From positions 372,001 to 436,000 of the forward strand of contig NZ_JAMXMY010000002.1 of NCBI RefSeq assembly GCF_024055795.1: 64,000 bases of DNA, given 5' to 3'. The translations under genes and the position numbers were made by a program. The notes below the pieces were generated by a model. That model was not told the DNA's origin. It did not search any database and saw nothing but the letters and a program-made list of their open reading frames with translations. This stretch comes from Actinoallomurus purpureus. GTDB taxonomy: Bacteria > Actinomycetota > Actinomycetes > Streptosporangiales > Streptosporangiaceae. Shown one piece after another: positions 9,080 through 54,397 of the stretch. Within the stretch, counting starts at the first letter, position 1. Each line of letters begins with the position of its first letter.

Positions 9080-9158
9080 GAATGCTCGGTGACCGCCATC
9101 CCACACTGGGGCGAACCACCTCGGCCCAGCCCTCGGGTCGGCCTATGACCGAGCAATC
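9080..9158. repeat. 79-bp dispersed inverted-repeat element, family A, copy 1
   Basis: Ends are GAATGCTCGGT and ACCGAGCAATC, an 11-bp inverted repeat with one mismatch. Length between outer ends is exactly 79 bp, as in the three other copies (51533, 54139, 54319). The interior is the most diverged, keeping a GTCGGCCTAT stretch related to the GTCGGTGCCTAT of copy 2. It lies between the convergent tsaD and ABC permease genes. Confidence 0.7.
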
Positions 9159-9205
9159 CGTCCGACGGGAAGCCGGCTCCGGCGCAGTGTGCAGCGGTCC
9201 GAACG

Positions 9206-9240
9206 CCTGCGTCCCGACCCTCGCCGGGTCGGGACGCAGG
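9206..9240. terminator. Bidirectional terminator hairpin between tsaD and ABC permease
   Basis: A perfect 15-bp stem (CCTGCGTCCCGACCC and its complement) closes a 5-nt loop, 17 bp from the end of the convergent permease gene. No strong U-tract follows, as is common in high-GC actinomycetes. Confidence 0.8.
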
Positions 9241-9257
9241 TCGCTGAAGGCACCGGG

Positions 9258-10040
9258 TCAGCGGGCTCGGTTGCGGTTGAACCGGGTCTTCGCCCAGACG
9301 TAGCCGACGAGGGCGATGCCGGCGCACCACGCGGCGGAGGTGACGGCGCTGTGCCCGATGGGTGTGCCCATCAGCAGGCCGCGCAGGGTCTCGATCACGG
9401 GAGTGAAGGGCTGGTACTCGGCGAACCAGCGCAGGCCCGCCGGCATGGAGCCGGTGGGGACGAACCCACTGCCGATCATCGGCAGGAGCTGCAGGGGGAG
9501 GGGCAGGTTGCTGGCGCTCTCGGGGGACTTGGCGAACACACCGAGGGCCACCGCCAGCCAGGTGAGCGCGAACGTGACCATCAGGAGGACGCCGATCGTC
9601 GCGATCCACTCGACCGGACCGGCGTCGGGCCGGAAGCCGAGGGCCAGGGCGAAGCCGATGACGAGTGCCGTGCTGAACATCGTGGTGATCAGGCTGCCGA
9701 TGACGTGCCCGGTCAGCAGGGAGGCACGGGAGATCGCCATGGTGCGGAACCGGTCGATGATCCCCTCGGTCACGTCCACGGAGACCGCCACGGCTGTCAT
9801 GAGGGACCCCGACGCGACGGTCATCAGGATGATCCCTGGGACGAGGTAGTCCAGGTACTGCGCCCGGCTGCCGCCGATGCCGGTGCCCAGCGCGCCGCCG
9901 AAGACGTAGACGAACAGCAGCAGGAAGATGATCGGCAGTCCGGCGACGCTGAGGGTCAGGGACGGGTAACGGAGGGCGTGCCGGAGGTTGCGGCGCAGCA
10001 TGGTCGCCGAGTCGCTCGCGGCATGGGACAGGGCGCTCAA
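9258..10040 (-). CDS. ABC-2 type permease, DrrB-like
   Basis: A 260-residue membrane subunit with about six helices. It contains PIIFLLLFVYVFGGALGTG, a periplasmic YLDYLVPGIILMTVASGS segment and TEGIIDRFRTMAISRASLL, the ABC-2 signature of the daunorubicin-resistance (DrrB) group. Its start overlaps the stop of the ATPase gene by 4 bp, so the two form one exporter. Substrate not predictable; such pairs export antibiotics or lipids. Confidence 0.92.
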   Translation of the reverse strand: MSALSHAASDSATMLRRNLRHALRYPSLTLSVAGLPIIFLLLFVYVFGGALGTGIGGSRAQYLDYLVPGIILMTVASGSLMTAVAVSVDVTEGIIDRFRTMAISRASLLTGHVIGSLITTMFSTALVIGFALALGFRPDAGPVEWIATIGVLLMVTFALTWLAVALGVFAKSPESASNLPLPLQLLPMIGSGFVPTGSMPAGLRWFAEYQPFTPVIETLRGLLMGTPIGHSAVTSAAWCAGIALVGYVWAKTRFNRNRAR

Positions 10041-10981
10041 CGGAGGGCCTCCTTGGCGGTGTCGGGACGGCCGGTGAGGGCGAAGAAGACGTCGTCGAGG
10101 TCGGGCGTGTGGACCTGCAGCTCTTCGGGCTGTACGGCGGTGGCGTCGAGCCGGTCGAGCAGGGCCCGCAGTGCGGGGAGGCTGCCATCGCTCGGGACGC
10201 GGAGGGTGAGGTTCTCCTTGTCGAGGACGGCGTCGGTCAGCAGGTGTGCGGCGCGGTGGAGCTCGGTGGCGTCCGCGAAACGGAGCCGGATGTGGCCGCC
10301 GGGTACGCGGCGTTTGAGCTCCTGCGCGCTGCCCTGGGCGACCAGCCTTCCGTGGTCGAGCACGGCGATCTGGTCGGCGAGCCGGTCGGCCTCATCCAGG
10401 TACTGCGTGGTGAGCAGGACGGTGACGCCGCCGGCGACGAGGTCACCGATGATCTTCCACATGGTGCGGCGGCTGCGCGGGTCCAGACCGGTGGTCGGCT
10501 CGTCGAGGAAGATGACGCGCGGGTCGCCGACCAGGGTCATGGCCAGGTCGAGGCGGCGGCGCATGCCGCCGGAGTAGGTGGCGGCGAGCTTGCCGGCCGC
10601 GTCGCGCAGGTCGAACCGCTCCAGGAGGGCGTCGGCGCGTCGCCTGCCCTCGATCTTGCCGAGGTGATGCAGGTCGGCCATGAGGATGAGGTTCTCCCGG
10701 CCGGTGAGCTTGTCGTCGAGGGCGGAGAACTGGCCGGTGACCCCGATCGCGGACCGTACGCCGTCGGGATCTTCGGCGAGGTCATGGCCGGCGATCTCGA
10801 CCTGGCCGGCGTCGGCGTCGATGAGCGTGGACAGGATCTGGACGGTGGTGGTCTTGCCGGCGCCGTTCGGGCCGAGCAACGCGAAGACCGTTCCTTGCGG
10901 GACGTACAGGTCGATGCCGTCCAGGACGAGCTTGTCGCCGTAGGACTTGCGAAGGCCGGTGGCCTTGATCGCTGCGGGCAT
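10037..10981 (-). CDS. ABC transporter ATP-binding protein, DrrA-like
   Basis: A 314-residue ATPase. Walker A is GPNGAGKTT (about 37-45), the signature is YSGGMRRRLDLA, and Walker B is VIFLDEPTTGLDPRSRR followed by the switch LLTTQYLDEAD. The C-terminal extension, with HTPDLDDVFFALTGR, is typical of daunorubicin-resistance ATPases. It is encoded upstream of, and overlaps, the permease. The DUF4097 and HicB-like genes lie upstream on the same strand, beyond a 316-bp gap. Confidence 0.94.
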   Translation of the reverse strand: MPAAIKATGLRKSYGDKLVLDGIDLYVPQGTVFALLGPNGAGKTTTVQILSTLIDADAGQVEIAGHDLAEDPDGVRSAIGVTGQFSALDDKLTGRENLILMADLHHLGKIEGRRRADALLERFDLRDAAGKLAATYSGGMRRRLDLAMTLVGDPRVIFLDEPTTGLDPRSRRTMWKIIGDLVAGGVTVLLTTQYLDEADRLADQIAVLDHGRLVAQGSAQELKRRVPGGHIRLRFADATELHRAAHLLTDAVLDKENLTLRVPSDGSLPALRALLDRLDATAVQPEELQVHTPDLDDVFFALTGRPDTAKEALR

Positions 10982-11160
10982 GGCACTTCCTCAGGGCGCG
11001 TCAGGGTGCGGCGTGCCGCGGATGCGGCGGCACACCGCCCTGGGTGGAGAGGGGAGGGAATCAGAGGGGATCGTTGAATCGCCTCGGCCTCGGCCGGGGG
11101 AGAACGGGGGCGAGGCGAACGCGCTACCGGGCCTCGTGATCGATGGTCACGGCACTGGGG

Positions 11161-11244
11161 CGAGAGGTCGCAGCCCGGTCGAGGTAGGGGAGAGTCGGTC
11201 GGCGAGAGGTCGCAGCCCGGTCGGGGCAGGGGAGGGCCGGTCGG
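11161..11244. repeat. Two imperfect 42-bp tandem copies upstream of the ABC operon
   Basis: The unit beginning CGAGAGGTCGCAGCCCGGTC occurs at 11161-11202 and 11203-11244 with about five mismatches. It sits in the 316-bp space (10982-11297) between the DUF4097 gene and the ABC ATPase, upstream of the latter. No gene is seen here; a promoter or leader of the exporter operon must lie in this space if it is not cotranscribed with DUF4097. Confidence 0.75.
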
Positions 11245-11297
11245 CGGGCGGGCGCCCGCCGGAGGTCAGGCGTCAGATCGTGTCTTCCTCGTGTGAC

Positions 11298-12170
11298 TCA
11301 GTCCTGAGGGGTCAGGGTGGCGCGGCGGATCACGATGTCGCCGAGGGAGGTACGGGCGTGGACCCGGACGGTCTGGTCGGACTCGCCGGGGCCGTCGGCC
11401 GTGTCCAGCAGGTTGCGCACGCTTCCGGCGACGGCCTGGACGTCGAGCCAGGCGGCGGTGCCTTCGCGGACGCCGATCTCCAGCTGGCCGGCGGCGGTCT
11501 GTATGCCGATGGAGCCCTGGGAGACCTCACCGATCCGGATCTTGCCTGCGGCGGTCTTCGCGTCGACGTCGGCGTACGCCCGGTCGATCACGATGTCCCC
11601 GCTCGCGGAGCGTACGCGCACGTCACCGGCTGCTTCGCCGACCCAGGTGGCCCCTGAGGAGGTCTTGACGGTGACGGTGCCGTCGGCCCGGCGGAGGCGC
11701 ACCTCGCCGATGCCTGTGGTGATCTTCGCGTCACCGGCCGTGTGTTGGACCGTGACGTCTCCGCCGCCGTTCTTCACCTGAAGCGCGTGGGCCTCTTCGA
11801 TCCAGATGACGCCTGCGCCGCTGGACACCTCGCAGTCGCCGAACGGTCCCGCACAGTGGAAGTTGCCCAGTCCCGACGAGGCGTGCAGGTCGGAGCCCGA
11901 GGGGAGCTCGACGTGGACCTGGACCGCGGCGTCCTTGCCGGGGCCGAGGCCGATCATGCCGCCGAACCGCTTCGGTCCTTTGACCAGTAGTCGGCCGTCG
12001 GTGTATTCGACCCGGGTCTCCTCGGCGGCTCGGACGTCTCCCGCCTTCGACTCGTCGGCGGGACGGACCTCGACGACGGTGTCGGTGCGGTCGGACGCGG
12101 TGATGCGGATCTCGCCGATGACGACGTCGACGGTGGCGGAGATCGGCTCGGGGGTGGTGAATGTGGGCAT
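11298..12170 (-). CDS. DUF4097-family beta-strand-repeat protein
   Basis: A 290-residue protein built from repeated short beta strands. Each strand has the pattern hydrophobic-x-hydrophobic ending in a small polar turn (VVIGEIRITASDRT, GDVTVQHTAGDAKITTGIG, GDVRVRSASGDIVIDRA, GKIRIGEVSQGSIGIQTAAG). This predicts a right-handed beta solenoid of the putative-adhesin DUF4097 type. No signal peptide, so probably cytoplasmic. It lies downstream of the HicB-like gene with a 68-bp gap, suggesting a two-gene unit under the TGACGTCA operators. Function unknown in the family. Confidence 0.85.
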   Translation of the reverse strand: MPTFTTPEPISATVDVVIGEIRITASDRTDTVVEVRPADESKAGDVRAAEETRVEYTDGRLLVKGPKRFGGMIGLGPGKDAAVQVHVELPSGSDLHASSGLGNFHCAGPFGDCEVSSGAGVIWIEEAHALQVKNGGGDVTVQHTAGDAKITTGIGEVRLRRADGTVTVKTSSGATWVGEAAGDVRVRSASGDIVIDRAYADVDAKTAAGKIRIGEVSQGSIGIQTAAGQLEIGVREGTAAWLDVQAVAGSVRNLLDTADGPGESDQTVRVHARTSLGDIVIRRATLTPQD

Positions 12171-12238
12171 GGTGCGGCCTTTCTGGTCGCGGGGTCCACG
12201 ACCCCGCCAGTGGTCGGTGGTTCGGAGGGAGGCCCGGG

Positions 12239-12760
12239 TCAGCGGGCCCAGCCGGTGTAGCGCCCGCCGCGCGGAGCCGAGCGCCTGCGGACGTCATGCT
12301 CGCGGTCCGTACGCTCCACGGCCTCGGCGATGGTGCGGACGAGCCAGGCGTTGACCGAGAGCCCTTCCCGGTCGGCGGCCTGCTCGGCCCTGGTCTTCAG
12401 CTCCTCGGGGAGACGGAGGCTGATCCGGGAGACGGCGCCGTCCTTGGCGCCGTAGGACACCGGCGGCGCGGGCTCCGCTGCGGGCGCCGCCGCGACGGCG
12501 GCCTCCTCCGCCCCGGTGGCGGGCGACTCCACGACGAACTCCGGCTCGCCCCTGCGGAGGCGCAGATCCACCGAGCCGGGAGCGAGCTCTCGGGTGATCT
12601 CCTCTGCGGCGGTCGACAGAGCTTCCAGCAGGACCAGCCGGACCGCCGACTGCAGGGGCGCGGTGAGCCGCTCCGCGAGCTCACGGGTCTCTTCACCGCC
12701 GGCCTCGGCGGCGACCGCGAGCTCCTGGCGGAGCTGGGCGACGTATGACTCCAAGTGCAT
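12239..12760 (-). CDS. HicB-like ribbon-helix-helix DNA-binding protein
   Basis: A 173-residue protein. Residues about 1-70 are a helical region (HLESYVAQLRQELAVAAE, then LAERLTAPLQSAVRLVLLEAL), followed by an acidic strand region and an Ala/Pro linker. The C-terminal domain ISLRLPEELKTRAEQAADREGLSVNAWLVRTI is a ribbon-helix-helix fold of the Arc/HicB type, ending in a basic tail. The ATG at 12760 matches the usual start of this actinobacterial family. No HicA toxin is present, so a solitary regulator role is likelier than toxin-antitoxin. TGACGTCA sites overlap and precede its start. Confidence 0.8.
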   Translation of the reverse strand: MHLESYVAQLRQELAVAAEAGGEETRELAERLTAPLQSAVRLVLLEALSTAAEEITRELAPGSVDLRLRRGEPEFVVESPATGAEEAAVAAAPAAEPAPPVSYGAKDGAVSRISLRLPEELKTRAEQAADREGLSVNAWLVRTIAEAVERTDREHDVRRRSAPRGGRYTGWAR

Positions 12761-12824
12761 GACGTCAGCATGGCACACCTTATGGCGTCACGACAACATC
12801 GATGTGACGTCACTTTGACGTCAC
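12760..12824. promoter_or_regulatory. Array of four TGACGTCA-type operators at the HicB-like start
   Basis: TGACGTCA occurs at 12760-12767, TGGCGTCA at 12783-12790, GTGACGTCAC at 12804-12813 and TGACGTCAC at 12816-12824. The palindrome centres are spaced 23, 22 and 11 bp, about one or two helical turns, so proteins would bind the same DNA face. A -10-like TAAGGT reads toward the HicB-like gene at 12782-12777 inside the array. Autoregulation by the ribbon-helix-helix protein is inferred. Confidence 0.6.
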
Positions 12825-13036
12825 CAAGACTCCATGGCGGTCGCGGAGGTGTCACCTGCCGGGTGGTGGCGCGCACGGCGGGACGGTGTGACCTGGGCGG
12901 GTTCGCCGCGGAGGGATCCGCCGGGGCCTGAACCGGTCGGCGGTCGCCGGAAGTGGGCGGGTACGGCGGGAGGGGGACATGTCCGCCCACGCCCCGGCCC
13001 CAAAATGGAGAGAGGGCCGGTGGGCCGGAGGGCAAG

Positions 13037-13057
13037 GTGACGTCATTATGGCGTCAC
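13037..13057. promoter_or_regulatory. Second TGACGTCA operator pair
   Basis: GTGACGTCA (13037-13045) and TGGCGTCAC (13049-13057) have centres 11 bp apart, repeating the spacing of the main array 220 bp away. Both arrays share TTATGGCGTCAC. The 12761-13192 gap has no gene that can be supported: it holds the two operator arrays and the 17-bp tandem repeat. Confidence 0.55.
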
Positions 13058-13100
13058 CCATCCGGACCGTTCCGCGAGCCGCGCGGCTTCGCCGGCGGCG

Positions 13101-13202
13101 GGCAGGGCCAGAAGCCGGGCAGGGCCAGAAGCCGGGCAGGGCCAGAAGCCGGGCAGGGTCAGAAGCCGGGCAGGGTCAGAAGCCGGGCAGGGTCAGAAGC
13201 GG
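13101..13202. repeat. Six 17-bp tandem repeats containing the stop of the phosphotransferase gene
   Basis: Unit GGCAGGGCCAGAAGCCG is repeated six times without spacers. Copies 1-3 have GCC and copies 4-6 GTC at the variable position. Copy 6 contains the TGA stop of the phosphotransferase gene (complement of 13193-13195) and its last codons, so the array looks like serial duplication of that gene's 3' end. Some copies keep the stop; the GCC copies have lost it. Confidence 0.9.
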
Positions 13203-14125
13203 GCCGGGGCGCCGAGGTCGACGAGGGCGTGGTCGAGCAGGCCCTCCAGGGCCGGGATGTCGCGGGCGGCGATCGTCCGGTCGGGCTGCTCGGGCAGCAG
13301 GTCGAGGACCGTGCGCAGGTCCCAGTACGGATCGTGCCGGTATCCCCCGGACACCTGGTCGAAGGAGGCCGAGAAGCGGTCGGCGACCGTGACGTCGTAG
13401 CGGAGGGCGAGGGCGCGCCGCATGTGGGCGATGTCGATGGCGATCGGGCCGTACGCGGCGTTGGACCAGTCGACGATGCCGGTCAGGCGGCCGCCGGCCC
13501 ACAGCGTGTTGTCGGGGTGGTAGTCGCGGTGGATGAAGTGGGGCGTGGCGCCGGGGGTGGGTCCGGCGGCGACGTCCAGCGCGTGCTCCCACAGCGCCGG
13601 TCGCCGGGCGTGGCGGGGGGAGAGCCGGATCTCGAGGCGGTTGTACGGGCGGTATGGAGGCATCGTCGACGCCCCGGCGACGGCGTGGACGGACAGCAGC
13701 GCGACGGCCAGCTGGATGAGGTATTCGGGCAGCTCGGCGTTTGACGGGCGGGGCGGATGGCCGAGCAGCCGGGTGATCAGCAACGTGGGAACGTCGCAGT
13801 GGGCGCCGGAGGGGTCCGCGGCCACCAGGGCGGGGGTGGGGATGTTGCACGCGGTGAGCAGGGTGAGCGCCGCGATCTCCAGCTCGGGGGAGAAGTCGAT
13901 GTCGATGACGGGCCAGCCGGACGACGCCCAGCGCCGCAGCACCAGGCGATGCACGGTGCCCGAGCGGCTCTCCGCGAGCACCGCGTGGTTGACATGGGCC
14001 AGCCCGCCGACCATGGGCCGGACCATTTTCACCTCACTGCCGGCCCCCAGGCATTTTTCGATCCAGCGCAGCGTGGCGGCGCTCGGCGGATCGGAGAGCG
14101 TGGGGAAGGTCACGGCCACCATCAA
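13193..14125 (-). CDS. Phosphotransferase family protein (APH/choline kinase fold)
   Basis: A 310-residue kinase-like protein. It has the small-lobe strand HRLVLRRWASSGWPVID, the Brenner-type catalytic motif FIHRDYHPDNTLW (about residue 200) and the metal-binding IVDWSNAAYGPIAIDIAHM. These place it in the aminoglycoside phosphotransferase/homoserine kinase superfamily. Whether it inactivates an antibiotic or phosphorylates a metabolite cannot be told. ATG codons at 14125 and 14122 are both possible starts. The 3' end is embedded in a 17-bp tandem repeat. Confidence 0.87.
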   Translation of the reverse strand: MMVAVTFPTLSDPPSAATLRWIEKCLGAGSEVKMVRPMVGGLAHVNHAVLAESRSGTVHRLVLRRWASSGWPVIDIDFSPELEIAALTLLTACNIPTPALVAADPSGAHCDVPTLLITRLLGHPPRPSNAELPEYLIQLAVALLSVHAVAGASTMPPYRPYNRLEIRLSPRHARRPALWEHALDVAAGPTPGATPHFIHRDYHPDNTLWAGGRLTGIVDWSNAAYGPIAIDIAHMRRALALRYDVTVADRFSASFDQVSGGYRHDPYWDLRTVLDLLPEQPDRTIAARDIPALEGLLDHALVDLGAPARF

Positions 14126-14273
14126 AACGGATTCGGCCGAGGATCGGTAGTGATTTTGTCAATGCGAGGCAGAGCGAACGGCATGTCATTGCGGGAACAG
14201 CGCCCAAACTGCCGTGAATGGCGCAATAGAGGAGAAGTGGCCGCTCTAAAGTGATTTGTGAGCGGCCACTCCG

Positions 14274-15518
14274 TCAGTCCTTGCCGTCACGTCGCGGCCG
14301 GAGCAGCGCCTCGGCCAGCGCCAGCATCGTCTCCTCCAGCGTGACGAGCCGCTTCATCAGATCCTCATGGGCGGTCGTCACCTGCTTGGTCACGTCGTGC
14401 TGCACGCCGGTGACCCGCTGGGTGACGTCGTCGTGCACCCCGACGACCTGGCGCAGGAGATCCTCGCGGAGCATCTCCATGTGCTTGGTCAGGTCGACGC
14501 GGGACGCCTCGACGATCTTCGACAGGGTCTCCTCCGCCTCGTCCCGATCGGGCCTGGCCCGCAACTCGTCGATGAGGGGGTCGACCGCCTCGGCCAGACG
14601 CTTCTCCAAGGCGTCGAACCGGTCGGTGGGGTCGATGAACGGGCGATCGCCGACCGCGGCGACCTTGCGGTGCAGTTCGTTGATCTCCAGCGTCACGGGC
14701 AGCCGGCCGATCTGCTGGTCGACGCCGTCGACGCGGTCGCAGGCCCCGTCGACCTTGGCCTCCAGCGCCTGGAAATGACCCTCGACCCCACGGATCTTGC
14801 CGGACAGGCCCTCGAGCCGGCCGTCGATGCCGTCGAGGCGCCCGCCGACGCCCTCGACCCTGCCGTTGACGGCCTCGAGGCCCTGCTCGACACGCTCGGC
14901 CATGTCGTTCAGCGACTGGTCGACCTTGCCGGCCACTCCGTTGATCTCATGCTCGAGCTTCTCGGACCGGTGCCCGAGGTCGGCGAGGGTCTTGTCCAGC
15001 CGGTTGAACCGGACCGACGCGGCCTCCATGGTGCCGGCGAGCCGGTCGAGCCGCTTGGTCAGGTCGTCCATCTGCTGGGCGGCCTGCAGCGTCGCGTCGG
15101 TGATGCTCCTGCTGGAGTCGAGCACGGCCTGGATGCGGGCCAGGCCCTCGTCGACGTTCTCGGCGATGACCCCGACGTCGGCCCACAGGGAGGGCAGCTC
15201 GGCGACGGGCTTGACCTTCTCGCCCACCGACTCGATGTGCTCGGCCAGGCCCTCGGCCCACTCCGGAGGCTTGCCGCACAGCTCGTCGACCTGGCCGCGG
15301 ACGGTATCGAGCTGGGTCGTCAGGCCGGTGAGCTCACGCTCCCGGACCTCGCGGAGCAGCCACTCTATTCCCTCAAGTCGCTGGTGGACCTCGTCGAGGA
15401 GTTGGCCGGTCGAACGCTGCTCATAGACGTGATCTTGTGCGGCGCGGGCTAGCAATTCTCGCATTCGGTCCGAGACCGGCTGACCCCCCGTCTGCAGGAA
15501 GTTGTGATTGGTGTCCAC
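14274..15518 (-). CDS. Long coiled-coil protein with heptad repeats
   Basis: A 414-residue, highly charged protein predicted to be almost entirely coiled coil. Heptads run most of its length. A central block (about residues 215-275) repeats a 7-residue GRLDGID-like unit (GRLEGLS, GKIRGVE, AKVDGAC, DRVDGVD). A C-terminal block repeats HDDVTQRVTGVQHDVTKQV. There is no signal peptide, membrane helix or recognised domain. The architecture suggests a cytoskeletal or scaffold filament (inference). It is monocistronic, flanked by the phosphotransferase and a zinc-ribbon gene on the same strand. Confidence 0.75.
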   Translation of the reverse strand: MDTNHNFLQTGGQPVSDRMRELLARAAQDHVYEQRSTGQLLDEVHQRLEGIEWLLREVRERELTGLTTQLDTVRGQVDELCGKPPEWAEGLAEHIESVGEKVKPVAELPSLWADVGVIAENVDEGLARIQAVLDSSRSITDATLQAAQQMDDLTKRLDRLAGTMEAASVRFNRLDKTLADLGHRSEKLEHEINGVAGKVDQSLNDMAERVEQGLEAVNGRVEGVGGRLDGIDGRLEGLSGKIRGVEGHFQALEAKVDGACDRVDGVDQQIGRLPVTLEINELHRKVAAVGDRPFIDPTDRFDALEKRLAEAVDPLIDELRARPDRDEAEETLSKIVEASRVDLTKHMEMLREDLLRQVVGVHDDVTQRVTGVQHDVTKQVTTAHEDLMKRLVTLEETMLALAEALLRPRRDGKD

Positions 15519-15679
15519 CCGGGTGCTCCTTCGTTTGCCGTGCCGCCGATCTGCGCGCGGAAATGGCAGCGGCGTGGATCGCGAAGTGACACTCTATTGA
15601 GCGGACCAAGGTCATCGAGCCGAAGAAAAGAAATTCAGGGAAAAGAGATTCTTATCCACGTGCGGCAAAGCGCCCTTTT

Positions 15680-15895: not shown

Positions 15896-16052
15896 CGTCG
15901 CCCCCCGTCTTCGCCCGCGCCCGCCTCGTGGGCGCCCGTCATCACGGCCGCGGCGCGGCCTTCCGGTCGCCAAGAGTAGTCAGCCGGACACGGTCACCAC
16001 CGTGGTCTTTGCCGGACTCTGGCGTGTCGCCCCCTCATCGTCAGGCGAACGG

Positions 16053-46647: not shown

Positions 46648-46759
46648 CGCTGGCTCCAGTGGCAGGAGGCGTGTTTTTCAACGTAAGCCCGGAATGACGG
46701 GTTAGGCCAGAGGGGTGACAAAACCTGGACACGGGGTTGACCGTGCCTCGGCACCCAAG

Positions 46760-46804: not shown

Positions 46805-46843
46805 CGGGCGGACATGCCCGCCGCGCGGGACGCGTCCGCCCCG

Positions 46844-48302: not shown

Positions 48303-48710
48303 GGGGGACCCTCACGTCGGCCTCCTTCGCTGGTCGGGATGTGATCACCCCTTCCATGTCGGGAGCGCCGCCGGCCTTACACCTCGGGGTCACGGCCTGC
48401 ACCGCGGCGGTCGTCCGCGTGTCGTGACGGCGGCTCGCGGGACACGACCGCCGGATTCAGGCTGCTCGGCGGGTCGGCACGTGGCAGCTGATCATTGACA
48501 CGGTGATCTGGTCTGTCAGGATCCTCCCTGGCACCCCGGAGTCGAACAACCCACCGGCGCGGAGCACCCAGGCGGTGAACCGCGATCCTGAGGCTGTTCC
48601 GGCCCGGACCAGCAGGAGGCGGCCTCCAACGGGCTTTCGCGGAAGGATTCCGGATCGTCTAAAACGCTGGCATTGTGTTCCTTCGTCGCGTTTGAACGGG
48701 GGGAGGGATT
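48303..48710. other. Intergenic region with candidate promoter
   Basis: The 408-bp space between the sigma pseudogene and the GT-C gene shows no supported gene. TTGACA at 48495-48500 and CAGGAT at 48517-48522 (16-bp spacing) form a possible promoter reading toward the GT-C gene. A stem GGCGGTCGT (48407) with ACGACCGCC (48444) is also present. Confidence 0.35.
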
Positions 48711-50432
48711 TTGACCAGTGTCGAGGAGCGGGTCGCCGATGATCCGGGCCCGGTGGTGGTGGACGGGGACGGACCCGGCCGCCTGAGCCGTGGCCTGGGG
48801 TTCGCCCGCCGGCACCGCGTCTTCCTCGCCGTCCTAGTCCCCGCGGTGGCGCTGCGCCTGATCACGATGCTCGGCTATCGCGGCGCGCTGTGGTTCCCCG
48901 ACTCCTACGACTACGTCAGCGGGGCGGTATCCCTCACGCCCAACCTCATCCGCCCCAGCGGCTACTCCCTCTTCCTCTGGCTGCTGTCCCCGTTCCACAG
49001 CCTGACCCTCGTCGTGCTCGTGCAGCACGCGATGGGCGTCGCGGTCGGCGTCATGGTGTACGCGCTGCTGCGCCACCGCTTCGGGCTGCCCGCCTGGGCG
49101 GCGTCCGCCGCGGCGGTCCCCGCGCTGTTCGACGCCTTCGGCATCCAGCTCGAACACCTCATCCTGTCCGACTCGCTGTTCACCTTCCTGGTGACGCTGG
49201 CGGTGACCCTCGCCCTGTGGCGGAGGGCGCCGAGCACCCGGCGGACGGCCGCCGTCTGCCTGCTCGTCGGTCTCGCCGCGGTCACCCGCTCGGTGGGACT
49301 CCCGGTGCTCGTCCTGGTCCTGGCCTGGCTGGCCGTACGCCGGGCCGGTCTGCGCGCCATCGCCGCCGGACTGGTGGCCGGGCTGCTGCCCGTCGTGCTG
49401 TACGCCGGGTGGTTCTCCTCGCGTACGCACCAGTTCGGGCTCACGTACAGCACAGGGATCTTCCTCTACAGCAGGACCATCCCGTTCGCCGACTGCCGGA
49501 AGATCAAGCCACCGGTCGACGAGCTGCCGCTGTGCATCGACACGCCTCCGGCGAAGCGCGGGCGGTCGCAGTTCTACATCTGGGGCCGGACCTCGCCGTT
49601 CCACCGGCTCGGCGCGCGCAAGTTCACGCCCGACATCGAGGGCCGGGCGGGCGACTTCGCCAAGCGGGCGATCATCGCCCAGCCGGGCGACTACGCCGAG
49701 ACGGTGGCCTCCGACCTGCTGCGGACGTTCCGCTGGCACCACCCGCCGTTCCCGGAGCCCACCACCTACGGCTACTACCTCTTCCAGGTCCACCCGCCGC
49801 AGCCGCCGCCCGTCGCGGTGGCGAGGATGCGGCCGTACGACCCGGGACACCTGAATACGAAGGTCGTCCGGCCGTACGCCGGGATCATGCGGGCCTACCA
49901 GCGCTACTTCTTCCTGCGCGGCACGATGTTCGGCCTGATCCTCCTCGTGGGGCTGGGCGCGCTGCTGCGCCGGCGGTGGGAGGCGCTGCTGCCCTGGACC
50001 GTGGCGGTCGCCGCCATCGTCGTGCCGCCGACCACCGCCGAGTTCGACTACCGCTACGTCATCCCCGCGGTCCCCGCCGCCTGCATCGCCGCCGCCCTCG
50101 CCCTCACCCGGCGAGACGGCGACACGGATGACGCCAACCGGAGCGACGGGTCCTCGTGGTGTGATGTGCCGACCAGAGTCGGCGGTGGTCGAACGACTCG
50201 GCCATCGCTCGGCATCCAACCAAGGATGCCCCGGCGGCGGAGGCGGCATGAGCCGGGTCAGACGGGTCCACTATGCGACGAGTGCAGGTCAGTGGAGCTC
50301 GTAGCGCATCTCGTAGTCGCCCACCTTCAGGCCGGCCGTGACACCCGTGACGTGGGCGTAACGAGCGCCCCCGTCTGCTGGTGCACGTCGGTCTGGACCT
50401 TGGTGATCGCATCCTTGGCGCTGTCGGTCTAG
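48711..50432 (+). CDS. GT-C-type membrane glycosyltransferase, C-terminus altered
   Basis: A multi-helix membrane protein of 573 residues as read. After a cytoplasmic leader come RVFLAVLVPAVALRLITMLG and GALWFPDSYDYVSGAVSLTP, with the acidic first-loop motif of ArnT/PMT-like GT-C enzymes, about ten more helices, and YFFLRGTMFGLILLVGLGAL with TTAEFDYRYVIPAVPAACIA. TTG 48711 follows GGGGGGAGGG. The last 105 residues or so (from about 50116) have no membrane or family character and run antisense over a gene fragment; the natural tail may be the one at 51242-51323. Confidence 0.72.
   Translation: MTSVEERVADDPGPVVVDGDGPGRLSRGLGFARRHRVFLAVLVPAVALRLITMLGYRGALWFPDSYDYVSGAVSLTPNLIRPSGYSLFLWLLSPFHSLTLVVLVQHAMGVAVGVMVYALLRHRFGLPAWAASAAAVPALFDAFGIQLEHLILSDSLFTFLVTLAVTLALWRRAPSTRRTAAVCLLVGLAAVTRSVGLPVLVLVLAWLAVRRAGLRAIAAGLVAGLLPVVLYAGWFSSRTHQFGLTYSTGIFLYSRTIPFADCRKIKPPVDELPLCIDTPPAKRGRSQFYIWGRTSPFHRLGARKFTPDIEGRAGDFAKRAIIAQPGDYAETVASDLLRTFRWHHPPFPEPTTYGYYLFQVHPPQPPPVAVARMRPYDPGHLNTKVVRPYAGIMRAYQRYFFLRGTMFGLILLVGLGALLRRRWEALLPWTVAVAAIVVPPTTAEFDYRYVIPAVPAACIAAALALTRRDGDTDDANRSDGSSWCDVPTRVGGGRTTRPSLGIQPRMPRRRRRHEPGQTGPLCDECRSVELVAHLVVAHLQAGRDTRDVGVTSAPVCWCTSVWTLVIASLALSV
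49904..50115 (+). repeat. 212-bp direct repeat, copy 1 (in GT-C gene)
   Basis: Encodes the last helices of the GT-C protein. It is about 95% identical to 51029-51241, in the same orientation, 1.1 kb apart. The two copies bracket an insertion with a gene fragment, a small peptide gene and a terminator. Confidence 0.92.
50289..50432 (-). pseudogene. C-terminal gene fragment, frameshifted
   Basis: On the minus strand DSAKDAITKVQTDVHQQTGA is followed, after a one-base frame change near 50370, by RYAHVTGVTAGLKVGDYEMR and YELH with a stop at 50289-50291. Both parts have natural protein composition, unlike the run-on of the GT-C gene on the other strand. No start or upstream part is present. The parent protein is not recognised. 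Confidence 0.4.
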
Positions 50433-50471
50433 ACGCGCGCGGGCCAACATGGCAACGGCTCGGGCGACTAC

Positions 50472-50506
50472 CTGGCCCCCGACACGCAGCGCGCGCCGGG
50501 GGCCAG
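50472..50506 (-). terminator. Terminator of the small peptide gene
   Basis: CTGGCCCCCG and CGGGGGCCAG form a perfect 10-bp stem 9 bp after the stop of the peptide gene at 50515. Confidence 0.8.
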
Positions 50507-50514
50507 TGACTTGG

Positions 50515-50640
50515 CTAGCTGGGCTGCTCGTCCTCGTCGGGGATCTCCTCGGTGAAGATCTCGACCAGGTTGCCGCCTACGTTGTAGGAGGCCTCGAGGG
50601 TCCTGTCCTCGCCGCTGGTGGAGGGCTCGTTACTGGACAT
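50515..50640 (-). CDS. Small acidic peptide (41 aa), possible RiPP precursor
   Basis: Encodes 41 residues: MSSNEPSTSGEDRTLEASYN followed by VGGNLVEIFTEEIPDEDEQP and Ser. It has a good ribosome site (AAGGGG 6 bp before ATG 50640) and its own terminator, so it is a self-contained unit. The hydrophilic, acidic character with a short hydrophobic stretch recalls precursors of ribosomally made peptides, but no maturase, protease or exporter adjoins. Not recognised as a known precursor family; antitoxin or orphan peptide are alternatives. Confidence 0.55.
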   Translation of the reverse strand: MSSNEPSTSGEDRTLEASYNVGGNLVEIFTEEIPDEDEQPS

Positions 50641-51028
50641 TTTTGCCCCTTTTCGGTTCGCCTAGTTTTTGTCCCTGCCACGAATGGCGGGGACGGTCCG
50701 GTCTCTGATGGCCGAAACCGAGTAGGACTGTCCAACGCTGCGGAGATCCGGCAAGTAATGATGGTCCGCAAGACGGAACCGGATCGCATGCAAGTCGTCG
50801 CCGCACACACCCAGACCGGGACTGTACGGTCAACGGTTTGCGCCGTGAGGCGCTGTGATTCGTGTGCGGGTGTGAGACCCGCGGGGACGGCGCGGGTCCG
50901 GCAAACGAGACGGGAAGGTGGACGCGAAGAACCAGCGGTGTAAAGCCCCTCAAGACCTCCGTCAGCTCAAACCCGGTGGATGCGGGCTGGATCGCGGTGC
51001 GCATCGCCCGTAAGGGTGGAAGCTCTTG

Positions 51029-51323
51029 CTACTTCTTCCTGCGTGGCACGGTGTTCGGCCTGATCCTCCTCGTGGGGCTGGGCGCGCTGGTGCGCCGGCG
51101 GTGGGAGGCGCTGCTGCCCTGGACCGTGGCGGTCGCCGCCATCGTCGTGCCCCCGACCACCGCCGAGTTCGACTACCGCTACGTCATCCCCGCGGTCCCC
51201 GCCGCCTGCGTCGCCGCCGCTCTCGCCTTCACCCGCCGCGACCCCGCCGAAGGGGCACCGGCCGCCGCAGCCGCGTCGGCCGACGGTGGCCCGCCATGCC
51301 GGGACGGGAAGGCAGAGGCGTAG
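51029..51323 (+). pseudogene. 3' fragment of a GT-C gene (second repeat copy)
   Basis: The frame carries YFFLRGTVFGLILLVGLGAL through TTAEFDYRYVIPAVPAACVA, the duplicated last helices. It then has a Pro/Ala-rich cytoplasmic tail RRDPAEGAPAAAAASADGGP ending at 51323. It has no start and lacks all upstream helices. It may be what is left of a tandem paralogue, or the original end of the 48711 gene displaced by an insertion. Confidence 0.8.
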
Positions 51324-51401
51324 GCCGTCCCGGTCGTACGCGGGTCCCGGGGCTGACTGGAGAGGCGTAGGCGCTCCTGGCCGCAGCACGTGGTCCCGCC
51401 T

Positions 51402-51469
51402 GCACACAAACGACCTATCGATCTTCCATTCGCCCAGGAACCTGTGATCGTCGACTCGCATTTGTGTGC
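51402..51469. repeat. 68-bp segment with 9-bp inverted ends
   Basis: GCACACAAA at 51402-51410 and TTTGTGTGC at 51461-51469 are perfect inverted ends. The 383-bp gap 51324-51706 has no gene; it holds this segment and the family A copy at 51533. Confidence 0.45.
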
Positions 51470-51532
51470 GGACGGACCTCCGCACCGCCCGTGGTCACCT
51501 CGGACGATCACGCTGCGGCGGTCGGCCGAGCG

Positions 51533-51611
51533 AAATGCTCGGCGAAGGGTCGGCGTGTCCGGCGGTCTGACGTGTTTTGTCGGTGCCTATCGCAACGGTT
51601 GCCGAGCGTTC
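51533..51611. repeat. 79-bp dispersed inverted-repeat element, family A, copy 2
   Basis: Ends AAATGCTCGGC and GCCGAGCGTTC, 79 bp overall. The right half TTTTGTCGGTGCCTATCG then CAACGGTTGCCGAGC is close to copy 3 (TTTGTCGGTGCGGTTGCCG). A local GCCGAGC...GCTCGGC hairpin overlaps the left end. Confidence 0.75.
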
Positions 51612-51706
51612 GGTACGCCTGCCGTCCGCTCACCCGGCGCCAACCGCGAGAGGGCGTCGCGGCCCCCGGCCGATTCGTGTGGCCACTGCCGGGGGACGCG
51701 GCACAT

Positions 51707-51901
51707 CTAGGGCTCCGCCCGGTCGGGGCGGAACTGCCGGTCGTAGAGCTCGATGCTCTTGCGCGCGGCCTCGGGATACCGCCGTACGAGCCGGTCGAGC
51801 TGCGTCAGCTCGACGGCCTGGGACACTCCCTGCGAACCGATCGAGTCCAGGGTCGCGAGGAATTCGTTGACCGAGCGCATGAGCTCGTCCGGCGAGGTCA
51901 T
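51707..51901 (-). CDS. Small hypothetical protein in XRE/DUF397 locus (64 aa)
   Basis: A 64-residue helical protein: DELMRSVNEFLATLDSIGSQ, ELTQLDRLVRRYPEAARKSI, ELYDRQFRPDRAEP. It starts in an ATGA overlap with the gene upstream, so the two are coupled. No family recognised; its context beside an XRE regulator and DUF397 protein suggests an actinobacterial regulatory module. Confidence 0.75.
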   Translation of the reverse strand: MTSPDELMRSVNEFLATLDSIGSQGVSQAVELTQLDRLVRRYPEAARKSIELYDRQFRPDRAEP

Positions 51902-52185
51902 TTCCGAGGTGGGAGTGGAACGGAGACGACCTTCTTGATCAGCTCCACGGCCTTTTCGATCTCTTCCGCGCCGCAGATCGGCTTGTCCCAGGACCACCAC
52001 CAGCAGAGCCTTTCGTTGTGGTCCGGTTTCGCCGTGACGATCTCGGCGAGGTGATTGCTGGTCCCCGGAGCGTGAACGTAGACCCGTGTCGGTCCCTGCT
52101 GCTGGGCGTCCAGCCCGGCCTGCTGGCAGGCGATGGTGAGTTTTCCGGCGAGTTCGTGAACGTCTTCGGCGGTGTTGATGGTCAT
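51898..52185 (-). CDS. Hypothetical protein upstream of the 64-aa gene (95 aa)
   Basis: A 95-residue protein starting TINTAEDVHELAGKLTIACQ, with a middle VYVHAPGTSNHLAEIVTAKP and an aromatic core LCWWWSWDKPICGAEEIEKA. ATG 52185 follows CAGGGAGTCACA. It is divergent from the XRE regulator at 52311 across 125 bp. Proteins of this pattern are seen beside XRE/DUF397 pairs; function unknown. Confidence 0.75.
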   Translation of the reverse strand: MTINTAEDVHELAGKLTIACQQAGLDAQQQGPTRVYVHAPGTSNHLAEIVTAKPDHNERLCWWWSWDKPICGAEEIEKAVELIKKVVSVPLPPRK

Positions 52186-52310
52186 TGTGACTCCCTGTTG
52201 TCGTTCGACTCCACAGATTGACTGAGAAGTCGTACGCTGGGAGCCCCCAACGCGTGGAGCACGAGGAGACAAGAGGCACGTCCCGCGTTTGTACGGAAGG
52301 TGTACGGCCA

Positions 52311-53117
52311 ATGTCGGGAAACCACATGACGGCGCGGCAGTTCGTCGGCAGGGAGATCCGCCACGCCCGCGAATCCAAGCAGCTCACCCGTGCCGAACTG
52401 GCGAAGACCTTCCCGGTATCCGAATCCCTCGTCGCATCCTGGGAAACCGGACGTCTTATCCCGAAAACGGAATATATTCCTCACCTAACGGGCATTTTGG
52501 GCCTACCGGATGTAATCCTGCGTATACTCGATGATCTGGTCAGTAGGGAGGTCGCACCGGAGTGGCTCGACAAGTGGACCAGAGTGGAATGCGAAGCCAC
52601 GACGTTGCTCTGGTACGAGTCGACGGTCATTCCCGGACTCCTGCAGACGGAGGAGTACGCGCGTGCGGTGCTCCGCCTCGGGAAGCCGTCTCCCCTTGAT
52701 CTTGAGGGGCAGGTGAGTACACGGCTGGCAAGGCAGAAGGCTCTGACGCGCGAAGATCCCCCGCTCTACCACGCCGTACTCGACGAGGCGGTGATCAGGC
52801 GGCCGGTAGGCAGTCCGAAGACGATGCGTGATCAATTAATTCGGCTGGTCGAGCTCTCGGAACGAGACGAGGTCATCATTCAGGTGATCCCCTTCGAGGT
52901 CGGGGCGCACGCTGGATTCGCCGGACCGATCGTTCTCGCGAGTATCAACGGCGCCGAGGTCGCGTATGTGGACAATGCGCTCCGCGGGGAAGTGGTAGAA
53001 AAACCGGAAGACGTCGCGGCGATCCGGCGACTCTGGCAGATGCTGAGCGCCAAGGCGCTGCATGAAGACGCATCGATCGAGCTCATCACGAAGGCAGCAC
53101 ACGAATGGGTAACCTGA
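52311..53117 (+). CDS. XRE regulator with DUF5753 C-terminal domain
   Basis: A 268-residue regulator. Helix-turn-helix REIRHARESKQLTRAELAKT with SESLVASWETGRLIPKTEYI (about residues 10-60) is followed by the DUF5753 domain: EWLDKWTRVECEATTLLWYE, VIPGLLQTEEYARAVLRLG and VIQVIPFEVGAHAGFAGPIV. These actinomycete regulators pair with a DUF397 protein, as in WhiJ-type switches; here DUF397 starts inside the last codons. GC content is lower than the neighbours, possibly a sign of transfer (impression only). Confidence 0.92.
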   Translation: MSGNHMTARQFVGREIRHARESKQLTRAELAKTFPVSESLVASWETGRLIPKTEYIPHLTGILGLPDVILRILDDLVSREVAPEWLDKWTRVECEATTLLWYESTVIPGLLQTEEYARAVLRLGKPSPLDLEGQVSTRLARQKALTREDPPLYHAVLDEAVIRRPVGSPKTMRDQLIRLVELSERDEVIIQVIPFEVGAHAGFAGPIVLASINGAEVAYVDNALRGEVVEKPEDVAAIRRLWQMLSAKALHEDASIELITKAAHEWVT

Positions 53118-53197
53118 GCTGGCGCAAGTCGACGCGAAGCAGTAACAACGGTGGCGCTTGCGTCGAGGTCGCCGTTGCCGAGAAGAGCAGCGAGTAG
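53105..53197 (+). CDS. Truncated DUF397 protein (30 aa)
   Basis: Overlaps the regulator stop by 13 bp. The peptide GNLSWRKSTRSSNNGGACVE and VAVAEKSSE is the N-terminal half of a DUF397 domain, which normally continues with VxVRDSK...F for 60-70 residues. It ends early at 53195 TAG (followed by TAA). It may be an intentional short form or a truncation; a terminator follows directly. Confidence 0.7.
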   Translation: MGNLSWRKSTRSSNNGGACVEVAVAEKSSE

Positions 53198-53211
53198 TAA
53201 ACCCCCCTGAC

Positions 53212-53250
53212 GTCCCCCGTCCTTGCTTACCGGAGCCAAGGGCGGGGGAC
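53212..53250 (+). terminator. Terminator of the XRE/DUF397 locus
   Basis: GTCCCCCGTCCTTG pairs with CAAGGGCGGGGGAC (one G-T pair) across an 11-nt loop and is followed by TCTTTGTG, a classical intrinsic terminator. Confidence 0.9.
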
Positions 53251-53266
53251 TCTTTGTGTCGCAGGT

Positions 53267-54052
53267 TCAGCGCCGGCGGACGAGGAGGGGCTGGGCGACG
53301 GTTCCGAGTTGGCCGTCGGGGTCCGACAGGGTGGCGTGGGTGAGGCCGAGGCCGTCGTCGGACAGGTCGGTGCGGCAGTCCAGGTGCACCCAGTCGCCAT
53401 CCGGGTGGCGCAGCAGGGTGGTCGTCATTGTGGGCGGGATGGACAGCCACTGCTGGAGAGGAAGAGTCGCCGACAGGCCGTTGGCGGAGTCGGCGACGAT
53501 CAGCGTGCGGGCCAGGCCGGTCAGCTTCTGTCCCGCGATCAACGGGAGGCGGACGCGGGTCCAGGCCTGCGCCCGGCCGAGGGTGTCGTAGCCGCCCTGC
53601 GTGTAGCGCCATTCGATGGCCTGCCCGTAGCCCCAGTCGGTCAGGCCGTGGAAGTAGTCCTGCTCGGCCCGGGCCGGCGGCAGCGGAGGCGGTGCGACCT
53701 GCTCGGTCTGTGCGGGAGGAGTCGGCCCCGTCGCGATGTGCCAGGCGCGGGCGGTGACCGCCACCCGCCCGTCGACGATCATGTGTGCCTCGGTGAGGCG
53801 GACCTGCCGGCCGGGCCGCAGCGGGGTGACCTCGATGCGGGCGCGGCGGCGCGGGATGGGGGCGAGGAAGTCCACCGAGATCCGGGCCATCCGCATGCCG
53901 GGCGCGACCGTGGCATCGATGGTGTGAGCCAGCAGCGCGGTGGGGGGCCCGCCATGCTGCGCGTCGCGGTCCCAGGGGCTTTCGGTGGCGCGCGTCGGCT
54001 CATAGACGTCGTCGTCGGCAGGCAGGTAGAAGGCCTCGGGCTGATCGCTCAT
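53267..54052 (-). CDS. Acyl-CoA thioesterase-like double hot-dog protein
   Basis: A 261-residue protein with TesB-type double hot-dog features. The first domain has WDRDAQHGGPPTALLAHTID and MRMARISVDFLAPIPRRRAR; the second has LSIPPTMTTTLLRHPDGDWV and GLGLTHATLSDPDGQLGTVA. The catalytic Asp/Gln positions of TesB were not all confirmed. ATG 54052 follows GAGGAGCG. It probably hydrolyses acyl-CoA; substrate chain unknown. Confidence 0.82.
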   Translation of the reverse strand: MSDQPEAFYLPADDDVYEPTRATESPWDRDAQHGGPPTALLAHTIDATVAPGMRMARISVDFLAPIPRRRARIEVTPLRPGRQVRLTEAHMIVDGRVAVTARAWHIATGPTPPAQTEQVAPPPLPPARAEQDYFHGLTDWGYGQAIEWRYTQGGYDTLGRAQAWTRVRLPLIAGQKLTGLARTLIVADSANGLSATLPLQQWLSIPPTMTTTLLRHPDGDWVHLDCRTDLSDDGLGLTHATLSDPDGQLGTVAQPLLVRRR

Positions 54053-54138
54053 GGAACGCTCCTCGGGCAGGGGACTGCGTCGTGCCGAACCCCCGACATC
54101 CCTCGCCTTCGGTGTGGCGGGTCGTCTCGAGGTGAGCG

Positions 54139-54217
54139 TAACGCTCGGCAAAACGCCGATTCGCATGGCGTCTTGAGGTGATCCGTCCCGGTTTGTCGGT
54201 GCGGTTGCCGAGCCTTC
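54139..54217. repeat. 79-bp dispersed inverted-repeat element, family A, copy 3
   Basis: Ends TAACGCTCGGC and GCCGAGCCTTC, 79 bp, in the same orientation as copy 4 only 101 bp further on. Flanking GCG/CGC extends the inverted repeat. The 466-bp gap 54053-54518 contains copies 3 and 4 and no gene. Confidence 0.8.
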
Positions 54218-54318
54218 CGCACGCGCCGGCGAGGCCGTTCAGCCGCACCACCGGGGGTGCGCTCCCTCGATGGGCGGCCGGTCGCGCGCTGGGGCGCGAT
54301 TCGTCGCGGAAGCAGACG

Positions 54319-54397
54319 GAACGCTCGGTGAAGGAACGATCCGCGAAATGATCCTGGGCGCTGTGTCCCGGCCTCGCCCTGCGATTGCCGAGCATTC
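54319..54397. repeat. 79-bp dispersed inverted-repeat element, family A, copy 4
   Basis: Ends GAACGCTCGGT and GCCGAGCATTC, 79 bp. Aligned without gaps to copy 3 it shares TGTCCCGG-like and TGCG.TTGCCGAGC stretches in the right half. Confidence 0.8.

Follow-up and report, generated by a model that had tools for sequence, protein, structure and literature searches.

The window, i.e. the whole 64,000-nucleotide stretch of DNA that was analysed, carries four copies of a short element with inverted ends (Table 1). An earlier note had described these copies, and all four were indeed present where it had placed them, with the ends it had given and a common length of 79 bp in its frame. When at least 10 of the 11 end positions were required to match on both sides, exactly four pairs of ends no more than 200 bp apart were obtained, corresponding to the claimed family, while a match of 9 of 11 positions added 16 further pairs with lengths scattered as by chance. 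A 94-column sequence model returned the same four copies with E-values of 5.4e-13 or better, and in the rest of the window only the reverse strands of these copies scored below an E-value of 0.2 (Infernal E-values being rough). The interiors place copy 1 in the opposite orientation to copies 2 to 4. A GTCGG(TG)CCTAT stretch, earlier thought to be common to copies 1 to 3, occurs in that form in copies 1 and 2 only, and was rejected as a family feature because it is missing from copy 3 and because copy 1 runs in the opposite orientation.

Table 1. Copies of the element in the window, with their end sites (positions are those of the window).
Feature	Position	Strand	Basis
Copy 1, whole element, class A	9074..9164	+	PWM pair; R2 model match 9073-9164, E 3.7e-13; orientation from interior
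Copy 1, left 22-bp end site	9074..9095	+	conserved span -6..+15
Copy 1, right 22-bp end site	9143..9164	-	conserved span -6..+15
Copy 1, region of the family's three helically phased A/T peaks (columns 31-34, 41-43, 51-54)	9103..9126	+	family A/T profile, 0/1000 shuffles
Copy 2, whole element, class A	51527..51617	-	PWM pair; R2 match 51526-51618, E 5.4e-13
Copy 2, low-coordinate end site	51527..51548	+	conserved span
Copy 2, high-coordinate end site	51596..51617	-	conserved span
Copy 3, whole element, class A	54133..54223	-	PWM pair; R2 match 54132-54224, E 2.7e-13
Copy 3, low-coordinate end site	54133..54154	+	conserved span
Copy 3, high-coordinate end site	54202..54223	-	conserved span
Copy 4, whole element, class A	54313..54403	-	PWM pair; R2 match 54313-54404, E 1.3e-13
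Copy 4, low-coordinate end site	54313..54334	+	conserved span
Copy 4, high-coordinate end site	54382..54403	-	conserved span

Searching the whole genome (9.25 Mb) with the end pattern at the spacing of the window copies yielded 31 forward and 31 reverse matches, representing 44 places, and the reversed pattern used as a control gave none. In total, the family occupies at least 86 genomic places that were examined, and 7 more were seen later; these copy numbers are lower bounds, the models having scored at most 150 candidates per genome and 21 in a search of 200 genomes of the taxonomic family. Among the candidates scored in the latter, matches occurred in 3 genomes, all of one genus, and the congeners G001 and G005 carry copies of the element. 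Alignment of 86 rows (with locus L072 counted in two frames) revealed that each end is a 22-bp site, approximately CGTRCGGAATGCTCGGTGAASG, with a conserved span from –6 to +15, rather than the 11 bp proposed before, and that conservation beyond it is flat. The element totals about 91 or about 102 bp and contains no gene. While the claimed length of exactly 79 bp holds within the window, the 77 class A copies examined across the genome measure 77 to 80 bp in that same frame, with 78 bp being the commonest.

Because class A loci had first been found with fixed-spacing patterns, only a test starting from single ends provides evidence on spacing that is free of bias. This test used 92 exact ends collected irrespective of spacing, and showed that ends pair almost only at 75–78 and 86–88 bp. 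Specifically, 76 of the 92 ends lay outside a carrier element of about 0.59 kb and had a partner scoring at least 8, of which 61 belonged to class A, 10 to class B and 5 to neither (for 3 of these 5, a class A partner was the second choice). A further 6 ends lay inside the carrier element, all paired at 85–86 bp, and 10 had no partner scoring at least 8, although 2 of these showed a weak partner at 76–77 bp. The mean end distance was 76.3 bp in class A (77 copies) and 87.4 bp in class B (9 copies), and with a difference of 11.1 bp the two size classes are one helical turn apart. Both classes recur in two congeners, with copies at 75–78 bp plus one each at 87 and 89 bp.

The interior between the end sites is nearly unconserved in sequence, and A/T recurs in it every 10–10.75 bp. 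Since the orientation of the elements had been chosen by likelihood, the shuffle tests of this phasing were run on orientation-free profiles, and none of 1000 shuffles was as strong as the 77 class A copies, while shifted stretches of the same loci displayed no A/T phasing. Because copies retrieved with models R1 and R2 had partly been selected by their interior, the test was rerun on the 44 copies retrieved by the ends-only pattern, again with 0 of 1000 shuffles as strong. The 17 copies in G001 and G005, mostly retrieved by R1 and R2, whose scoring includes the interior, were also phased (best period 9.75; 0/2000 shuffles). The three A/T peaks of the interior were shifted by about 11 columns in class B.

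The earlier note had also raised selection on the fold or a structured RNA. Such an RNA might be a 3′-UTR element or a small RNA, and the inverted ends could in fact close a long stem, with many copies lying directly 3′ of genes. However, pairing between the arms was barely above shuffle level, with 1268 of 1694 cells paired versus 1256.7 in shuffles (57/500), and 1283 versus 1276.4 on the other strand (118/500). Pairing on 38 rows slightly exceeded shuffles (32/500), and the excess was borderline on three of five measures (32–45/500), values that also arise without structure. About a quarter of the stem cells were unpaired, RNAalifold proposed 4 pairs of which none showed a double change, and an Rfam search of the window gave no match. 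The two arms thus vary nearly independently, with no convincing covariation, and the class A copies in tandem gaps lie 15 times in the same orientation as the genes and 16 times in the opposite one. Because of this lack of covariation and the random orientation relative to genes, an RNA stem is unsupported and the structured RNA was rejected as very improbable.

Placement relative to genes was scored by element midpoint, with genes called by a crude codon-position script. All 86 midpoints lay outside called genes, often directly 3′ of stop codons, although two class A copies reached into a called gene, by 1 bp at L075 and by 44 bp at L171. Convergent gaps were enriched (38/84 copies versus 21% expected) and divergent, promoter-bearing gaps depleted (9/84 versus 28.5%). 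Likewise, a stop lay within 100 bp of 49 of 75 copies and a start within 100 bp of 6 of 46, where 33% was expected in either case. The phase-locked spacing of two inverted sites recalls looped repression, but this placement disfavours a promoter-looping regulator with paired operators, which we regard as very improbable.

The earlier proposals of selection on the ends and of a MITE- or REP-like element moved in trans fit the relatedness among copies, many of which are dispersed and some locally clustered. In four copies on contig C23, the shared 88–102 bp coincides with the element, in a stretch without paralogous genes, and a pair on C2 has 92 bp in common. Moreover, a pair on two different contigs (C49 and C52) has related interiors (0.77) with flanks at random level. 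Homology is limited to the element, with unrelated flanks, in the C23, C2 and C49/C52 copies alike, as expected for many dispersed copies of a MITE. Of the 26 pairs lying within 10 kb of each other, 8 had an interior identity of at least 0.75, versus 1 of 2936 other pairs. Among eight related pairs, of which seven were near and one far, 303 of 352 end positions were identical versus 291 of 370 interior positions (p 0.011). Of the eight similar near pairs, however, three belong to longer duplications (L093, 661 bp; L185, 160 bp; L192, order-preserving) and three others come from one cluster, because of which the local excess is partly not due to movement and its pairs are not independent. Gene conversion could likewise render local copies similar.

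Several copies occupy orthologous sites in two or three species; L209/L075 and L206/L181 were not counted among them, their alignments having failed to superpose the elements. At four tested places (L065, L077, L085 and L078) no clean empty site was found in relatives, which either lack the element in unalignable DNA (three places) or hold a decayed one or none (one place). The copies at orthologous sites indicate that the element has been kept for long, as it would equally be if a host protein were bound to it. The element might in that case be BIME-like and serve chromosome architecture, with a wrapping or bridging host protein (gyrase-like or nucleoid) that binds the ends together with the A/T-phased interior on the downstream side of genes, e.g. 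where positive supercoils gather, and with copies spread by chance duplication and kept by selection. Such a role would suit A/T about every helical turn across the whole element, two sizes one turn apart, and the excess in convergent gaps and near stops. However, the confinement of matches to one genus among the candidates scored would be odd for a core host protein, and both the element-only homology between unrelated flanks, even on different contigs, and the three tested sites at which the relatives looked at lack the element argue against it. We deem this architectural role rather unlikely, but still a serious rival reading.

Regarding the mobilising enzyme, no transposase bounded by these ends emerged from the searches made, and no larger or autonomous element with the same ends was found around the single (orphan) ends examined. 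Target-site duplication was not apparent either: across the 86 rows, none of the boundaries and lengths tested gave a direct-repeat signal, the highest z being 3.4 over about 1200 tests; according to passages of PMC10969869, target duplications can decay with age. Because neither a target-site duplication nor a cognate enzyme was found, we did not file the family as a MITE or a REPIN.

In a REPIN, a RAYT (Y1) transposase would mobilise an inverted pair of REP sequences in the form of single-stranded hairpins. The inverted arrangement of conserved ends around a variable spacer, the preferred lengths, the extragenic location and the lack of target duplication would agree with this, and Y1 transposase ORFs do occur, three in this genome and, as a short match, in 1 of 7 congeners. 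All three are of IS200/IS605 type and lie beside OrfB_IS605 (TnpB-like) ORFs, and no strong end (12 or 13 of 13 positions) was present in the surrounding 2.4–3.4 kb loci. A class A copy does lie 1.5 kb from the Y1 ORF C11:42833, outside the searched locus and with a DDE transposase ORF in between. Y1/RAYT mobilisation is unsupported by adjacency within about 1.5 kb. Furthermore, G001 and G005 carry copies yet gave no Y1 match, hairpin covariation was absent within the 22-bp end (92 arms; for pair –3/10, 71 observed versus 70.9 expected) and hardly visible between ends, and a size step of one helical turn is indicative of double-stranded DNA. A REPIN is therefore improbable in our view.

On balance, we lean towards a gene-free miniature element that is mobilised in trans via an end-synapsis complex on double-stranded DNA that needs helical phasing. 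A putative protein acting in trans, in the simplest case a transposase or recombinase, would recognise the 22-bp end sites as double-stranded DNA and would have to bridge the two inverted sites over a distance of only about 77 or 87 bp. Because so short a loop is stiff, only phased copies would work, i.e. those with both ends on the same helical face and with A/T about every turn, allowing the DNA to bend or to face inward, while the interior sequence would otherwise be free. New copies moved by this protein would insert nearby, and would persist if they landed just downstream of genes. More tentatively, the element may embody a purely structural code, consisting of two docking sites and an interior on which selection acts for helical phase alone, with A/T about every turn and a whole-turn length; it would then represent a natural helical-twist experiment in a trans-mobilised family shorter than the persistence length of DNA. 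If this overall reading is right, genome data would directly reveal that a miniature mobile element in bacteria is mechanically constrained, with the end distance in whole helical turns and a bending interior conserved instead of sequence. The assembly rules of the synaptic complex would then be testable via a half-turn change in spacing, and similar families whose interiors are missed by ordinary repeat searches could be recognised in the same way.

In the titles and abstract openings of the open-access literature searched, we recognised no report on this element family or on helical-turn size classes in bacterial miniature elements. For bacterial transposons such as IS50, helical-twist experiments cited in PMC3464196 (Goryshin 1994) reportedly showed that short end-to-end distances impose helical phasing. 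That work concerned laboratory constructs, whereas here the genome itself displays the pattern. Bacterial MITEs (RUP, NEMIS/Correia, Bcr1, QMITE and others), as portrayed in excerpts of PMC10969869 and PMC3733652, resemble the present element in being smaller than 500 bp, gene-free and dispersed in intergenic copies with inverted ends. Compared with MITEs as described there, the present family has no detected target duplication and no autonomous partner was found for it, its interiors are A/T-phased and unrelated between most copies, and its two sizes lie one helical turn apart. REPINs, i.e. REP doublets with RAYTs, are likewise extragenic; their ends are inverted and conserved, and their variable spacers have preferred lengths, which portions of PMC3116915 and PMC3733652 give as 71 and 110 bp for P. 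fluorescens SBW25. Unlike REPINs as characterised in those portions, our family displays no palindrome signal within the end, no clear compensatory pairing and no flanking RAYT in the stretches searched, and its spacing classes are one turn of double-stranded DNA apart. The internal eliminated sequences of Paramecium, whose lengths show a periodicity of about 10.2 bp that parts of PMC3464196 read as DNA looping in a transpososome-like complex, are similarly short elements with helically periodic lengths. As presented in those parts, however, they are eukaryotic, developmentally excised and distributed over many size peaks, whereas the element described here is bacterial, has two size peaks and carries phased A/T in its interior.

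The four window copies (copies 1-4), short gene-free elements with inverted ends, were confirmed in the sequence as the earlier note had described them, and no further end pairs lying at most 200 bp apart were present in the window when a match at 10 or more of the 11 end positions was required on each side. A 94-column sequence model built from fetched copies recovered all four (each at E 5.4e-13 or lower) and, besides these and their reverse strands, nothing below E 0.2 in the window. Across the 9.25 Mb host genome (G000, 52 contigs), in which the window corresponds to C22:372001-436000, the whole-genome search that the note had proposed turned up 44 places where the end pattern is matched exactly and spaced in this way, compared with 0 for the reversed pattern. 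When 172 arms from 86 rows were aligned, with flanks fetched, the conserved span, about CGTRCGGAATGCTCGGTGAASG, extended from position -6 to position +15, counted from the AAY triplet, with next to no conservation beyond it. The 11-bp inverted ends initially described are the core of this site, the full extent of which is 22 bp, so that the common-class element measures ca. 91 bp.

Copies in the window and other features of the examined DNA
Feature	Position	Setting or description	Gap type
Copy 1	window 9080-9158	between TsaD and ABC-2 transporter gene	convergent
Copy 2	window 51533-51611	between two ORFs without Pfam match	convergent
Copy 3	window 54139-54217	between thioesterase-like and flavin-reductase-like gene	divergent
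Copy 4	window 54319-54397	same gap as copy 3	divergent
Peptide-sized ORF	window 50515-50640, minus strand	41 aa, no Pfam match	
Helix-turn-helix gene	window 52311-53117	DUF5753 domain; followed by a short ORF	
Palindrome	window 55168-55231	two adjoining 32-nt arms, 84% complementary, starting CGTTGACTTTGGGATTATCGCC	
Further dispersed repeat	locus L065, ~9770-10320	partial copies, 81-92% identical, at >10 places in G000	

Among the neighbours of these copies, the thioesterase ORF would run into copy 3 from its longest possible start (54166), but not from 54052, the start that the script picked. The short ORF after the DUF5753 gene resembles what we take to be the usual DUF397 partner of such genes, and the 41-aa ORF is, at a guess from its appearance, a small peptide precursor. 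The arm motif of the palindrome has three more matches in L199 (a locus on G000 contig C9), and may represent another dispersed palindromic family.

The structured RNA or fold suggested earlier was not borne out, as variation in one arm of an element is almost independent of that in the other. Paired stem cells numbered 1268 of 1694, compared with 1256.7 in shuffles (57/500 as high); for the other strand the numbers were 1283 and 1276.4 (118/500). A run on 46 copies likewise gave pairing close to that of shuffles. In a gap-free alignment of 38 copies, pairing (76.4% vs. 75.2%; 32/500) and the covariation score (0.153 vs. 0.136; 34/500) showed a borderline excess of a kind that, by the tool's own caution, arises without structure. 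The covariation check named in the note yielded only 4 RNAalifold pairs, none changed on both sides, and no covariation was seen for hairpins inside one end. Together with the lack of an Rfam match in the window and the even orientation of class A copies in tandem gaps (15 with and 16 against gene direction), the near-independent arms and the RNAalifold result led us to reject an RNA stem.

Since the first patterns fixed the spacing, single ends were searched without any spacing, which yielded 92 matches in G000 vs. 1 in the control. All 92 lay inside fetched DNA, where the best inverted partner was sought at 20-300 bp. Outside the carrier (a larger dispersed non-coding element of ~0.59 kb), a partner scoring at least 8 was found for 76 ends, of which 61 were spaced at 75-78 bp (class A), 10 at 86-88 bp (class B) and 5 elsewhere, with a class A partner as second choice for 3 of these 5. 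Six further single ends sat in the carrier at a spacing of 85-86 bp. Ten had no partner of that score, among them two with a weak partner at 76-77 bp and one located in a truncated copy of the carrier. In the 400-680 bp range, partners reaching that score occurred for 2 of the 92 ends. Mean spacing was 76.3 bp in 77 copies and, outside the carrier, 87.4 bp in the 9 of class B, the two means differing by 11.1 bp; the examined G000 material showed neither a class shorter by one turn nor one longer by two. A more sensitive model search added copies of both sizes, the well-pairing ones among those fetched from G000 being three of class B and four of class A. Congeners G001 and G005 each have one well-pairing class B copy (87 and 89 bp, respectively).

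The interiors resemble one another little more than shuffled ones do (median identity 0.47 vs. 0.44), but they carry a phased A/T signal. In a 95-column frame, interior A/T peaks at columns 32-33, 42-43 and 52-53, in step with that of the ends (columns 9-10, 20-21, 73-74 and 84-85). The orientation-free profile of 77 copies gave a best interior period of 10 bp (0/1000 shuffles as strong), the whole-element profile fitting 10.75 bp. The phasing recurred in 44 copies found by the ends-only pattern, in which interiors had played no part (0/1000 shuffles), and was missing from G000 stretches shifted by 150 bp (0.0007 and 0.0032 vs. 0.396). The 17 copies of G001 and G005, most of them retrieved with models in which the interior was included, gave a best period of 9.75 and a power of 0.214 (0/2000 shuffles; shifted stretches 0.02-0.05). 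In class B (9 copies, with two more from the carrier), all three interior peaks are shifted ~11 columns away from the left end; by a motif scan, 7 of the 9 copies outside the carrier have the class A interior at +9 to +11 and the remaining two have it at ~+20. Because of these shifts, class B looks like class A plus one extra turn between left end and interior. Joining two sites less than a persistence length apart demands helical phase, and this demand would explain why there are two size classes and why the interior is phased. A protein would then bind each 22-bp end as duplex DNA and bridge both ends; most simply, it would be a transposase or recombinase acting in trans.

Genes were called with a simple codon-position gene finder and elements placed by their midpoints, none of which (0/86) fell inside a called gene, two class A copies overlapping one by 1 and 44 bp. 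The gaps were convergent for 38 copies, tandem for 37 and divergent for 9, with 2 at the edge of the fetched stretch. Relative to random positions in the same gaps, convergent gaps were over-represented (38/84 vs. 21% expected) and divergent ones under-represented (9/84 vs. 28.5%); 49 of 75 copies had a stop codon within 100 bp (33% expected), and a start was that close in 6 of 46 (33% expected). This placement downstream of genes would suit the main rival to a transposase or recombinase, namely that the binder is a host architectural protein such as gyrase.

Homology limited to the element, on the other hand, argues against such a host protein. With carrier copies left out, four copies within 4 kb on contig C23 share 88-102 bp, i.e. 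the element, in a stretch with unrelated flanks and no paralogous genes. Pairs on C2 and C13 likewise have related interiors and unrelated flanks (homology of 92 and 117 bp), and a pair split between contigs C49 and C52 has an interior identity of 0.77 with flanks at 0.50 and 0.43 (0.48 for random flanks). Interior identity reached at least 0.75 in 8 of 26 pairs within 10 kb vs. 1 of 2936 other pairs. All eight near pairs have the same orientation; three come from the C23 cluster, and three (L093, L185 and L192) belong to longer duplications and do not demonstrate element movement. In seven near pairs plus C49/C52, all chosen by interior, ends were kept better than interiors (303/352 vs. 291/370 identical, p 0.011). 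No target-site duplication was detected (best z 3.4, ~1200 tests).

The carrier occupies seven places (L154, L155, L156, L157, L159, L160 and L162), 90-93% identical where aligned, and its copies with both ends (L155, L160 and L162) span 576-588 bp, with GAGGCTGTCGC and its inverse as boundaries. In six of these places the carrier holds two class B passengers, in the truncated L159 one plus a lone end; these were excluded from counts of independent copies.

Several copies are orthologous in place: L074 with L210 and L211 (three species), L208 with L213, L166 with L215, and L086 with L214, one end of which has decayed. At L078, G001 retains a shortened, decayed copy and G005 lacks one. Ends scoring above 5 were found in 0/6 relatives at the C23:5401 site and 0/7 at C2:212315 (240 bp looked at, gap unalignable), nor in G001 or G005 at the L085 site (gap unalignable). 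At E 1e-5 and under stricter filters, the better model was run on 200 genomes covering 68 genera of the family and matched 3, all of this genus. Within the genus at E 0.01, over both strands, G000 gave at least 150 rows, G001 40 and G005 14, the other five congeners giving 1-4 each, none better than E 1e-3. A strict form gave 13 single matches in unrelated taxa across 84,980 species (the host's own records possibly excluded), taken as chance, and IMG/VR had no match. From the orthologous copies and the genus-limited matches, the family seems to predate the split of these species, and it is richest in G000. The retention of copies would fit a host architectural protein, against which the narrow distribution speaks.

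For a transposase acting in trans, G000 offers three Y1 ORFs (L172, L174 and L175) of IS200/IS605 type, all beside OrfB_IS605 (TnpB-like) ORFs; in two, the match to the Y1 model is confined to its last two thirds, and one of seven congeners has a short Y1 match. No strong element end was found in the loci around the three. A class A copy lies 1.5 kb from the Y1 ORF at C11:42833, with a DDE transposase ORF between them, which may well be chance, given three ORFs and ~100 copies in 9.25 Mb.

Among the papers listed by searches of an open-access library, we recognised none on this family or on size classes one turn apart in a miniature element of bacteria. Its parts resemble those of MITEs and REPINs, but the target duplication that defines MITEs was not found here, and neither were the palindromic covarying ends and flanking RAYT of REPINs; because a defining feature of each was thus looked for and not found, we file the element under neither. 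Internal eliminated sequences of Paramecium have a length period of ~10.2 bp, which their authors put down to helical phasing (PMC3464196). The same phasing logic is applied here to both the size classes and the phased interior.
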